From Spinacia oleracea (Eukaryota > Streptophyta > Magnoliopsida > Caryophyllales > Amaranthaceae), in contig NC_079491.1 in NCBI RefSeq assembly GCF_020520425.1, forward strand, positions 4,092,001-4,156,000: a stretch of 64,000 bases of DNA, in the 5' to 3' direction. Below the pieces are notes generated by a model that was not told where the DNA came from, did no database searches, and saw only the letters and a list, made by a program, of their open reading frames with translations. Shown piece after piece: positions 43,549 through 63,222 of this stretch. Each line of letters begins with the position of its first letter. Within the stretch, counting starts at the first letter, position 1. The position numbers were made by a program, and so were the translations under genes.

Positions 43549-45784
43549 AACTACAATCACTATTTCTTATATATAGACACTATATGCAAGTTGGATTGAC
43601 TTTTTAAGACAACATAATAACGTACGGAACATATTGACTTTTCATATTGTCAAACGATTAAAATACTAGTAATATTTAGTTACGGAGTATCTTATACGGG
43701 GTAATGTCTTTATGCAAGATTGCAAGGCAGTCAAAACTCACGTTGAATAATTGACAACAATTTCCCAATTTCCACTCGAATTCTAACCTTCATATTCCAA
43801 ACTACTTGGAAGATATTTATACAATTTTTAAAAATTTACAATGATTTACCCACTGATCCTTTATTCTCTTTCATTAGGATGTTTGACATAAATAAGGGAG
43901 TAAACAAACCGAGTAATGTTGTATTCATGTTCATTTATATTAGATGAGTTTGAGATCGATTTCAAACGAGCTCAAGAATTTGTTCAAATGCAGTTCTTAA
44001 AGGAGATTTTGTGTTCATGAACTATTAGTGAACGACTCGTTTATTAACCAAATTGAGTTTACAATCAAGTTTTTATGCACCTTTAAAAATCTCAATAGTC
44101 ATTTTGCGTTTTTTTTTTATCATACTCTTCATTTTTTTCAAGAAGTTAAAAGTTAAATATCTCAATAGAATAATTATGTTATTCTTTTTCAAAATAAGAG
44201 TTTGTTTTTTAACATAATAAATAAATTTGTTCACTGATAAAATATAGCCCAGTTGTTTATGAACAAAATACGAGTTGTTGATGTAAAAATTGAGCTGGTC
44301 ATGAAATTAAATGAACAAATACATCTCTGTTAATGTCCATGCTCATTAATTGAACAAGCTTCAACACTTATTTAAGCTCAACGCCTTTATTAGAAAGAAC
44401 ATAAGCAAACTTTATCCGTATACGAGGGAGTCTCGATTCACTAACACCCCTAGCCCGTAACTCCGTAAATATGATAGCTTACCGTAACTCCGTAAACATG
44501 ATAGCTTAGTATCATCGGAAAAATATCAACACATGACAGTAGACTCTGTTGTTTTTAGAGGTAGCAAAGATAGCTTAGATTCTCCGTACCAACATAGCTA
44601 AAAAGACTCAAAACTACCGTTAGGTGATAGAAAAGGTACGAAATAACGCAATCGAAAGCAAAAATCAAATTGGCGTTCGTAATCTCAATAAAAACGGCAC
44701 ATTAGTTCACAACTTCACACAAGTGGAGAAACGACTTTCTGTACCTGCTCCAACAAAGAAAATACTCAAGAATACCACTATAATAAGAATCAGAGTACAC
44801 ACCTTCCTTCGTTTAGAAACAGTTGCACCACATTGACTTTTACCTTTGTCAACTCACATCTTTAACCGTTAATATATCTAATTATCTATTAGTAAAAATA
44901 ATCTTAAAAGTCATTGAGACTATCTAACTATTTTTTCATATCATAACATTTAAATTTTATGTAATTGAAAAAAAAGAGTCAAAATAAATATATGAATAAT
45001 GCATAAAGTAAAAGCGGTAAAACTACTTTTAATCAGAAGAAGTATTTTTCATTTTTGCAACTCAATAACTTACTATAATTGGTAGAATGTACACCCGACT
45101 GCAGATAGTTTTACACTTTTAACCTCTCAAAAAACACAAATTTACAAATTAAAGCGCATTTACAGTTTTAGAACACATTGTTACAGATGAATTAAAAGAA
45201 AGTTGTCGCAAGTAAATGATATGAAAGATATACAAGTATGTGCTTTTAAATCGTTAATGCGCTTCGCTAATATGCTTTTAAATAGGTAAAATATGCTTTT
45301 AAGATGTTAAAAACACGTGCTTTTATTCCGATTGCATATAGAACTAACTACATACTACCGGGTGAACCTTCTAATTTCTGCCCATCTTCTTCGTATGTTA
45401 CCAATCATAAATACGGAGGAGATGAAAAACAAAACAACCCAAAAGGCCAAAACCAGAGAACTTTTCTCCAATGTGTTAATGCTATAGCAGTCAACTCATT
45501 AGACGAGTTAAACACAACATACACCAAGAAAAGAAGAACAAGAATAAAGGGTAAAATTAATCACAATCCATAAATTACCAGACAAAAATTTCATAGAACT
45601 CTCCGACATAGATTAAAGTAAAACTCTTGAATCGCTGCTATTAGTCTAGTAATCTTTAACTAATGCCACTACCACTAATTGGGGTAAACAAGCAACAAAA
45701 CAGTAAAACGATTGTGGACAATTGCCATTGAAGACGCGCCAAAAAGAAAACTGCCACACCAGTGTATACAACATCACTAGTTCC

Positions 45785-47798
45785 TTACTTCTTCTTAGCT
45801 TCTGCGGCTTTAGTCTGCAAAAATAATCAAGAATAGTAGGGTTAAAATCTGGGTACAGCAAGCTGAGGCTAATAGAAACACAAAGTGTGAATTGAAGGAA
45901 AAGGTTTTAAATTTATCTGAAGAGTATAGTTTCATAATCATTGTGCCATGAAACAAATTCCGTCAATAGCTAATATAGGTGAATGTCATACCTTCTTAAC
46001 ACCACGAATCTTCTTCGCTCTGTTCTTCCTCTCCTTCATTTGTTTCCTGGACTTCTCGATCTTGGTGGCCAATCCGTTCTGTACCAAAGAAAGACCATAT
46101 TAATCATGAGAAGCATGGAATCTTGTAACCCATATCCATGATAGAATACAAGAAAAAAGGGAGCAAAGATTATTACCCTGATCAGCCTGTACTTGGGCTC
46201 GAACTTCTTTGCACTGTCAACGGAATCATAAATCAAACCAAATCCAGTTGATTTACCCCCTCCAAAGTGAGTACGGAACTTGAACACAAAGATGGAGTTC
46301 AAATCATTCACATCATAGATCCTAGCCAATTTTTCCTTCAACTCAGCCTTTCAGAAAAGAAAAGAATGCGGTAAGACATTTGGCAAACAGAGATATAAAA
46401 GCAACAATAAAACTCTCCACCTTTCTCCAGCAATCTTGGAAGGCATAAATGCAGAGAGTAAAATCATTATGAACCATAAAACATATGGAATTTTGATGTA
46501 ACAGTGGAGTTCGGAGGACACAATCACTGAAAATGCAATAATCCGCAAGCAAAATTGACAAATAAAACCCTCTAATAGATAGGTGAGTATATTGGAAGCA
46601 GTGTAATTAGAACGTGTATTAGTGTACAATGCAAAACGATAACTGCATTGCATACTGTAATAAAACTAACATCTGGAGGTTTGGCGCAAGGGACAAACTA
46701 AAAGCATTATGTTTGCATACAGCAGTAAGCTACCAGCGTTTCAGAGGTTTGATCATGTAAACTTAAATCTACGGGAACACACTTCAAGTCCCGTAATGGA
46801 CAACGGTAATGCACAACCATGACGAAATATCTTATTAGCAAAGTAGTACATGTTTCTACCTTTAGAAACCATACATACAATACAATATGACCAAGACGAA
46901 TACCAGAAGTACAGAATACAAACTGTGAAATGCCAATATAATACGGGAAACACCTCAAGTTATGTAATGAACACCAGCAACGCAATATATCATATTATAA
47001 CCATGATGAACTTTCTAATTAGCTAAGTAGTACATGTTTCTACCCTTAAAAACCATACATAAAATACAGCATGACCAAGAAGAGTACCAGAAGTCCATAA
47101 TACAAACTGTGAAATGCCAATATCATACCGGAAAAGCCTCAAGTTATGTAATGGACAAAAGTAATGCAATAGATGTTTCGACCCTTAAAACCAATACCTA
47201 CAATACAATATGACCAAGACGGGTACCGCATACAAACTACAATATACGCCCATATCATATGGGAAATACTTCAAGTTATGTAATGGACATCAGAAATGAA
47301 CTTTCTTCTTAAGCAAACTAGTAGATGTTTCTACCCTTGGAAAACATACATACAATACAACAATATGACCAAAAAGACTACCGAAATACAAAGTATGATA
47401 CACCAATATCAACAATGACATATCAATCAACAACAAATCAATAAGTACGCTTGAACAACATCTAATCCATTATAATTATCAATACAATCAGGTAAATTTA
47501 AGCAGCACTTGTTTTTAATAAAAAAAATCAATTAAAGCATAAAATACAATGCGGTAAAAGATCAATAAAAGAAGATGAAACCTTGGAAACGTTGGCGCGA
47601 CCAGGGTGAAGAACATCGATGACCTGAAATGCAACAAACGAATCAACGAAAATAAATTAGGGTTTGAGAAGTTATAGAATAACAATTTGAAAAAAAAATC
47701 AATCGAGAAGAGGGAGTAGAACTGACGAATTGCTTCCTTGAGAGAAGACGATTGGTCATGAACTTGCGAGTTCGGATTGTGACTGCCTTTTCCGCCAT
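45785..47798 (-). CDS. RPS24: 40S ribosomal protein eS24 (RPS24)
   Basis: Five exons on the minus strand: 47798-47727, 47623-47582, 46347-46177, 46078-45992 and 45814-45785. All are in frame with GT-AG introns and give 133 residues, the usual plant length. The protein starts [24 protein letters not shown], has [14 protein letters not shown], the conserved core [19 protein letters not shown] and [17 protein letters not shown], and a basic tail [20 protein letters not shown]. eS24 is a small-subunit component needed for 18S rRNA maturation. Intron 2 is about 1.2 kb and carries a 200-bp tandem repeat. The 5' leader has a duplicated 27-bp block (about 47839-47892) that the sister copy has only once. 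The promoter has a telobox and site II motifs. Confidence 0.96.
46790..47400. repeat. About 200-bp imperfect tandem repeat in eS24 intron 2
   Basis: Three to four copies of a unit with CATGTTTCTACC-TT, AAACCATACATACAATACA, ATGACCAAGA, CAAACTGTGAAATGCCAATAT and CTCAAGTTATGTAATGGACA. Copies start near 46850, 47033, 47165 and 47327. The intron of the sister gene carries a related but different repeat near 58945-59480. Confidence 0.8.
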
Positions 47799-61740: not shown

Positions 61741-61761
61741 ACTCACCTTTCTCCCCAAAAC

Positions 61762-63222
61762 ATGGGTCGACCATCATCCGTGATTGAAATCCCAGAGCGC
61801 CGGAACCACCGCAATTCACCGGAATCTGACGACTCCAGAGATCGTTACCGTCGCCGGAGAAGCCGCAGTCCATCTTATGGCCGGTATTCTCCAGAGATTC
61901 ACCGCCGTCGCCGCCCTGATTCCCCCGACAGAAGAAGAAGCAGCAGAAGAAGTCGTAGCCCTATTCGTAGGCGGAGCCCCGAGTATCGGGAACCTAGGAG
62001 GGATAATTACAGGAGAGAGGGAAATGCTAGGGTACCGGAGGAGGAATCGGATGAGGAATTGCGAGGGTTGAGCTTCGAAGAGTATCGGAGGCTGAAGAGG
62101 CAGAAAATGAGGTTGACGCTGAGGAAGACCTTCTGGAACATCACGCCTAGTCCTCCTCGCAATGAAAACGACGCGTTTTATGACCGTGAAGAGGAGGCAG
62201 AAGAGGTGGGGGAGGAAGGCGGTGGTGATTTGAGGAGAGAGAAATCGAATTCTAGGTCTGCGAGTTCAGATTCTGAATCGCGAAGTTCGAGTTCGGAATC
62301 GGAGGATTCTGATAGTAGGAGGAAGAGGAGGAAGAAGCGGATTAGCAAGGGTAAGAGTAAGAGTAAGAGTTCGAGGCGAAAGAAGAGTCGGAAATCGGTT
62401 GATTCAGATGAAGATTCTGATAAAAAAGAGAGTGAAGATGAGTATTCAAGTGATGATGACGAGGAAAGAAAAAGAAGAAAGCGAAAATCGAAATCGAAAT
62501 CGAGGAGTAGTAGAAGTAGTAGGAGTAGCAGGAAGAAGAGGGGAAGAAGTAGCAAGAGAAGGAGGAGAGAGAGTGATTCAGAGGATGATAGCAAAAGCGA
62601 AGACGAAGAAGGAGATGAACGCAAGGAGAAATCAAAGAGGAGTAGCAAGAAGAAGAAGAGTGATGAAGGTAACAGCAGCAGTGCATCTGAGAAAGAAGAG
62701 AAGATCGAATTAGATGAAGCAAATATAGATGAGTTAAACCCAGAAGCCTTGGCATTGAAGGAGATGTTGGAATCCCAGAAAATGGCTGCAGCTTTGATCA
62801 ATGAGGCACCAGTTGGTCCACAGCCATTGCCGAAAGCTGAAGGTCATATTAGCTATGGAGGTGCACTTAGGCCTGGTGAAGGTGATGCAATTGCACAGTA
62901 TGTTCAACAAGGGAAGCGTATTCCACGTCGTGGAGAAGTTGGGCTTTCAGCTGATGAGATTTCAAAGTTTGAGACACTTGGGTATGTGATGAGTGGTAGT
63001 AGACATCAGAGGATGAATGCCATTCGTATTAGGAAAGAAAACCAGGTTTATAGTGCAGAAGATAAGCGTGCTTTGGCTATGTTTAACTATGAAGAGAAGG
63101 CGAAGAGGGAGTCGAAGGTTATGACGGATTTGAAGAGGCTTGTTCAACGTACTATTGGGGAAGAAGTTGATCCTAACCATGATCCATTCGGTCCCAAGGA
63201 TGATGATGATGTTGAACCGTAA
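61762..63222 (+). CDS. NKAP family protein (intronless)
   Basis: 486 residues in one exon. Residues 1-100 form an Arg/Ser- and Arg/Asp-rich region ([30 protein letters not shown]), then a long Lys/Glu/Ser low-complexity region. The conserved C-terminal NKAP/SynMuv domain (about residues 340-480) contains [85 protein letters not shown] and [15 protein letters not shown]-type proteins are nuclear, bind RNA and the spliceosome, and in animals also repress Notch targets; in plants the role is poorly known. Start [14 protein letters not shown] agrees with the leader shared by the truncated copy. It diverges from the eS24 pseudogene, as in the ancestral unit. Confidence 0.93.

Follow-up and report, generated by a model that had tools for sequence, protein, structure and literature searches.

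Partial tandem duplication of an eS24-NKAP gene pair in spinach, with an NKAP copy truncated at birth and an eS24 copy probably lost late

Introduction

Tandem duplication of part of a gene, with one breakpoint falling inside it, is a known and general kind of event. Here we describe such a duplication in spinach (Spinacia oleracea), in a 64,000-nucleotide stretch of contig NC_079491.1 (positions 4,092,001 to 4,156,000 of the forward strand, assembly GCF_020520425.1; hereafter the window), which affects a gene for ribosomal protein eS24 and the divergent gene beside it, NKAP. The locus is the same in kind as other partial-gene tandem duplications, sharing with them direct orientation, an intact and a truncated copy of the breakpoint gene and a possible short overlap at the join; it is particular only in its age and in its later insertions. 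It is also like reciprocal gene loss after duplication, with one readable copy per gene in different units, but differs from it in that just one of the two genes ever had two complete copies.

The plant ribosomal-protein families RPL9, RPL4 and RPL5, as treated in PMC4679983, likewise have small-scale tandem copies, partial-copy pseudogenes and stretches of unusually high identity. That work differs in that eS24 is absent from its main text (zero occurrences of RPS24), and relative to the system described there the present locus has a neighboring gene cut by the same duplication. A literature search on NKAP with ribosomal-protein tandem duplication in plants returned nothing pertinent, its sole match being on homeobox genes. 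The history that we consider very probable is a partial tandem duplication in which the NKAP fragment was dead at birth and the second eS24 copy was lost late.

Results

Two adjacent units and their junction

The duplication has the following parts:
44017..53144, no strand: Unit 1, from the collinear chain and shuffle controls
53145..62074, no strand: Unit 2, from the same evidence, its right edge about 102 codons inside NKAP
53145..53152, plus strand: junction of the units, overlapping the NKAP side by six bases, five of which agree

Sensitive self-comparison of the window yields a same-strand collinear chain from 44017 = 53145 through 53151 = 62074. Its plus-strand matches are 44017-44363 = 53145-53489, 44568-44677 = 53614-53720, 45484-45861 = 55963-56364, 45881-46407 = 56668-57192, 46407-48046 = 58617-60186 and 52835-53151 = 61747-62074; a stricter comparison recovers the eS24 and NKAP parts of the chain, without the left edge. 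Three stretches, two at the left edge and one in NKAP, were compared with 200 dinucleotide shuffles each, and in every case none of the 200 reached the observed score. Outside both edges homology is absent, 50 and 127 of 200 shuffles scoring equally well, and the edges are located to within a few bases. The left-edge match was also considered as a dispersed repeat and rejected: the partner copy aside, the resemblance of 44017-44700 and 53145-53730 to the rest of the window is weak and spans 48-148 alignment columns, although further copies may exist elsewhere in the genome. The units are adjacent and in direct orientation, and their homology is collinear with sharp limits, which confirms a tandem segmental duplication, as the first-pass annotation had proposed, and the unit-against-unit collinearity that it expected of a dot plot is present.

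The unit-1 NKAP match extends to 53144-53151 and unit 2 begins at 53145. In the resulting overlap five of six bases agree (53146-53151 versus 62069-62074), a count that compares diverged breakpoints and has no chance level attached. This may point to microhomology at the junction, between copies that have since diverged. The first-pass annotation had set the junction near 53147, at a short shared stretch; this is here refined, in that ATGAACTA (53145-53152) is the start of the unit-2 match to unit 1 at 44017, the overlap with the NKAP side being the six bases compared above. Its further proposal, that the NKAP truncation belongs to the duplication event itself, is borne out by the end of unit-1 NKAP homology at the junction.

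A constrained eS24 copy with two lesions

Each unit contains an eS24 copy:
45785..47798, minus strand: unit-1 eS24 gene, 133 amino acids, exons 47798-47727, 47623-47582, 46347-46177, 46078-45992 and 45814-45785
56286..59952, minus strand: unit-2 eS24 copy, a probable recent pseudogene, exons 59952-59877, 59771-59730, 57134-56964, 56854-56768 and 56315-56286

The unit-1 gene is intact, as first annotated: its five coding exons are separated by four introns, all GT-AG, and its protein matches Pfam Ribosomal_S24e at full length (E 2.3e-39) and eS24 chains in the PDB, 9sdp_BY ranking first (E 2.9e-74). The unit-2 copy has both of the lesions previously noted. Four extra bases in exon 1 lead to a stop at codon 22, and the acceptor before exon 4 ends in AT rather than AG; a scan of intron 3 for AG found none, the first lying 10 bases into exon 4. 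The unit-1 copy would thus be the functional one and the unit-2 copy non-functional.

Differences between the eS24 copies number 3, 1 and 18 at codon positions one, two and three. Nonsynonymous divergence (Ka) is 0.010 and synonymous divergence (Ks) 0.27 (bootstrap 0.14-0.44), giving a Ka/Ks of 0.04 (bootstrap 0-0.10). Since the differences are almost confined to third positions, the unit-2 copy appears to have been under constraint through most of its existence and to have broken late; lesions on such a low Ka/Ks background make it a probable recently inactivated duplicate. The 18 third-position differences are mostly G/C in unit 1 against A/T in unit 2 (14, with 3 opposite). Only three amino acids differ. 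At these sites four PDB homologues share the unit-1 residue, bar one homologue at one site, and the replacements therefore appear to have arisen in unit 2. Supposing that all three were neutral changes fixed once the copy was inactive, its death would cover about the last 7% of the pair's age (1.5-21%), or 5% (1-14%) on the assumption of a quicker neutral rate. Silent sites in plants change at about 6.5e-9 per site per year; at that rate, and with no gene conversion, the duplication would date to near 20 million years ago.

Intron 2 of each copy has its own internal tandem repeats, of about 184 bp in unit 1 (46815-47411) and about 298 bp in unit 2 (58756-59396), whose origin or divergence was independent in each unit.

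Uneven divergence along eS24 and what it allows

Silent and non-coding differences were counted along the gene, omitting the central parts of intron 2 (47486-46442 in unit 1) and of intron 4, gapped columns and third positions without synonymous alternatives. From 5' to 3' the counts are: promoter 57/152, 5' untranslated region (UTR) 6/73, exon 1 1/22, intron 1 3/103, exon 2 3/14, intron 2 start 22/95 and end 6/93, exon 3 7/57, intron 3 49/98, exon 4 7/28, intron 4 22/92 and 7/47, exon 5 0/10 and 3'UTR 41/252. The stretch from 5'UTR to intron 1 is almost identical between copies, with 10 differences in 198 columns, and in a 180-column window none of 2000 permutations was as low. The patch points to gene conversion between the tandem copies or to constraint on a regulatory first intron, either of which would suffice.

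Several observations weigh against our reading of the unit-2 copy or of the patch. (i) As divergence is uneven along the gene, the likeness of the exons could stem from gene conversion, without selection on both copies. (ii) The patch itself is less sharply defined once the counts exclude promoter, 3'UTR and intron 3, which aligns poorly: 70, 3 and 0 of 2000 permutations are then as low at 80, 120 and 180 columns. (iii) Exon 4 of unit 2 has cryptic in-frame acceptors 18, 24 and 27 bases in, and acceptor loss alone may therefore be non-fatal. (iv) The unit-2 promoter region retains what we take to be a telo-box and some site-II-like motifs, so that promoter decay is unsupported.

One further account, which we regard as unlikely, has two tandem eS24 copies long under selection, their 5' end held alike by conversion or shared regulation, of which one has just failed or yields a shortened or regulatory transcript. 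We put less trust in a second, that unit-2 eS24 died soon after duplication and conversion from unit 1 kept the exons alike. The near-identical patch and the similar end of intron 2 would both fit this quite improbable course, and PMC4679983 reports conversion of this kind between copies of ribosomal-protein genes in plants. Conversion erases silent and replacement changes equally, however, and here silent sites have diverged in exons 2, 3 and 4 (3/14, 7/57 and 7/28) while three amino acids changed.

Could unit-2 eS24 still be in use, spliced in some unusual way or transcribed in a shortened or regulatory form? The strong signature of constraint and the in-frame acceptors of exon 4 would agree with this, but inspection found no ordinary bypass of the exon-1 insertion with its stop at codon 22, and the three replacements fall on well-conserved sites; continued use thus seems very unlikely.

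An NKAP fragment cut by the duplication

The two NKAP copies are of unequal extent:
61762..63222, plus strand: intact NKAP gene, a single open frame of 486 codons
52850..53144, plus strand: truncated NKAP fragment of unit 1, 295 bases, with stops at codons 12 and 14 and frame-breaking gaps

In unit 2 NKAP is intact, in agreement with the earlier description. Its protein has a Pfam Nkap_C domain at residues 364-462 (E 2.7e-47), i.e. the C-terminal domain expected of NKAP/MAS2. MAS2, the Arabidopsis orthologue, is reported in PMC5173251 to be essential, in keeping with the persistence of a single complete NKAP at the locus. The last codons of the gene, its stop and its 3' flank are themselves doubled in tandem (63209-63496 and 63494-63802, 82% identical), at a divergence resembling that of the large duplication.

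The unit-1 copy is, as first annotated, a nonsense-bearing 5' end that stops at the junction. Right of the junction the rest of NKAP is not matched, and NKAP was therefore never duplicated whole: there was no full-length gene in unit 1 that could later be lost. Against the intact gene the fragment has six gap runs (1, 5, 1, 2, 7 and 4 bases), none a multiple of three, and its differences are spread evenly over the three codon positions, as 26/98, 22/97 and 20/96. Both features are expected if the duplication cut the fragment, which is without codon-level constraint and has behaved as non-coding from the start. In a projected comparison of the NKAP copies Ka is 0.25 and Ks 0.44, a silent excess that runs counter to this, some of which is expected because selection acts on the intact copy.

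These results bear on the question of reciprocal loss, which the first-pass annotation had proposed. In its symmetrical form eS24 and NKAP were both doubled in full and one gene then disappeared from each unit, and the readable copies, one per gene, do sit in different units. We tried this description and set it aside as highly improbable: unit-1 NKAP homology ends where unit 2 starts, matching beyond that point is no better than in 127 of 200 shuffles, and the fragment (26/22/20) lacks the codon constraint seen in eS24 (3/1/18). There was probably one real gene loss. Instead of two symmetrical or simultaneous losses, the locus records a truncation made by the duplication and the apparently late death of an eS24 copy. 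An assembly artefact, with two haplotypes of a single locus placed end to end, can be dismissed, for most non-coding segments are roughly 15-50% diverged between units, the insertions are unit-specific and no point was found in its support.

Insertions in the units and other contents of the window

Three elements lie within the duplicated region:
48708..52834, no strand: CACTA-like element of 4127 bp, with inverted CACTACTACAAAA ends and a CTC target duplication
57237..58617, no strand: insertion of 1381 bp with TG...CA ends and a TAAAA target duplication, in intron 2 of unit-2 eS24
53730..55860, plus strand: decayed long interspersed nuclear element (LINE) in unit 2, with approximate limits, from a tblastn match

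CACTA elements are defined by inverted CACTA termini and a 3-bp target duplication, and 48708-52834 has both. It sits 15 bp upstream of the ATG of the NKAP fragment; NKAP loss does not need this insertion, because the duplication had already cut the fragment. A Pfam search of three frame pieces from its interior, the only ones submitted, gave no match; by eye, frame pieces on both strands at 50605-51320 resemble remnants of copia reverse transcriptase and RNase H. From its ends and size the 57237-58617 insertion looks like a solo long terminal repeat (LTR); within it lies a TTTCCGATTCCG-type tandem array (57981-58299). Given their target duplications, the CACTA-like and LTR-like insertions postdate the duplication. 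The LINE was recognized with the reverse-transcriptase frame at 11132-14299 as tblastn query (match at 53786-54520, 23% identity, E 3.8e-14). Over eight frame pieces, five from the unit-2 insertion and the three from the CACTA-like interior, Pfam found no element domain, with two sub-cut-off matches on one piece. Much of the length difference between units consists of later insertions, which hide their symmetry. Inverted repeats at 60506-60903 and 61442-61609, between eS24 and NKAP of unit 2, are possibly small inverted-repeat elements.

Elsewhere the window contains an Ovate-domain frame (6885-7781), a LINE with DUF4283, RVT_1 and zf-RVT (9140-14302), an LTR-type polyprotein with gag, RVT_1, RNase H and integrase (16181-22267), a 45-bp tandem array (22655-23007; 7.8 copies, 93% matches) and, on the minus strand, an internally repetitive frame that has PHD, TDBD and AT-hook domains (37745-40927). 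Rfam at gathering scores had no matches in the window.

Discussion

We propose that a single tandem duplication in direct orientation copied a segment that, later insertions aside, measured about 5 kb. This segment ran from past the 3' end of eS24 into the divergent NKAP, of which it took in about 102 codons, and the join was possibly of microhomology or replication type. The duplication truncated the upstream NKAP copy, leaving it dead on arrival, while both eS24 copies were complete and presumably held by selection on the protein through most of the time since. Mobile elements inserted into both units, and unit-2 eS24 would afterwards have acquired at least two lesions. What is left is a readable eS24 in unit 1 and a readable NKAP in unit 2, with two relics between them. 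The first-pass annotation had called these the functional copies; that there is one readable copy of each, in different units, stands, and their function is a prediction from sequence.

The locus is a case of ordinary duplicate-gene decay in which the order of events is unusually legible. A single duplication gave both a dead-on-arrival copy, the NKAP fragment, and a copy that was kept and then probably failed late, unit-2 eS24, and the two fates can be read from codon-position patterns alone. With the readable eS24 and NKAP now about 14 kb apart, any promoter region that they once shared is divided between the units.

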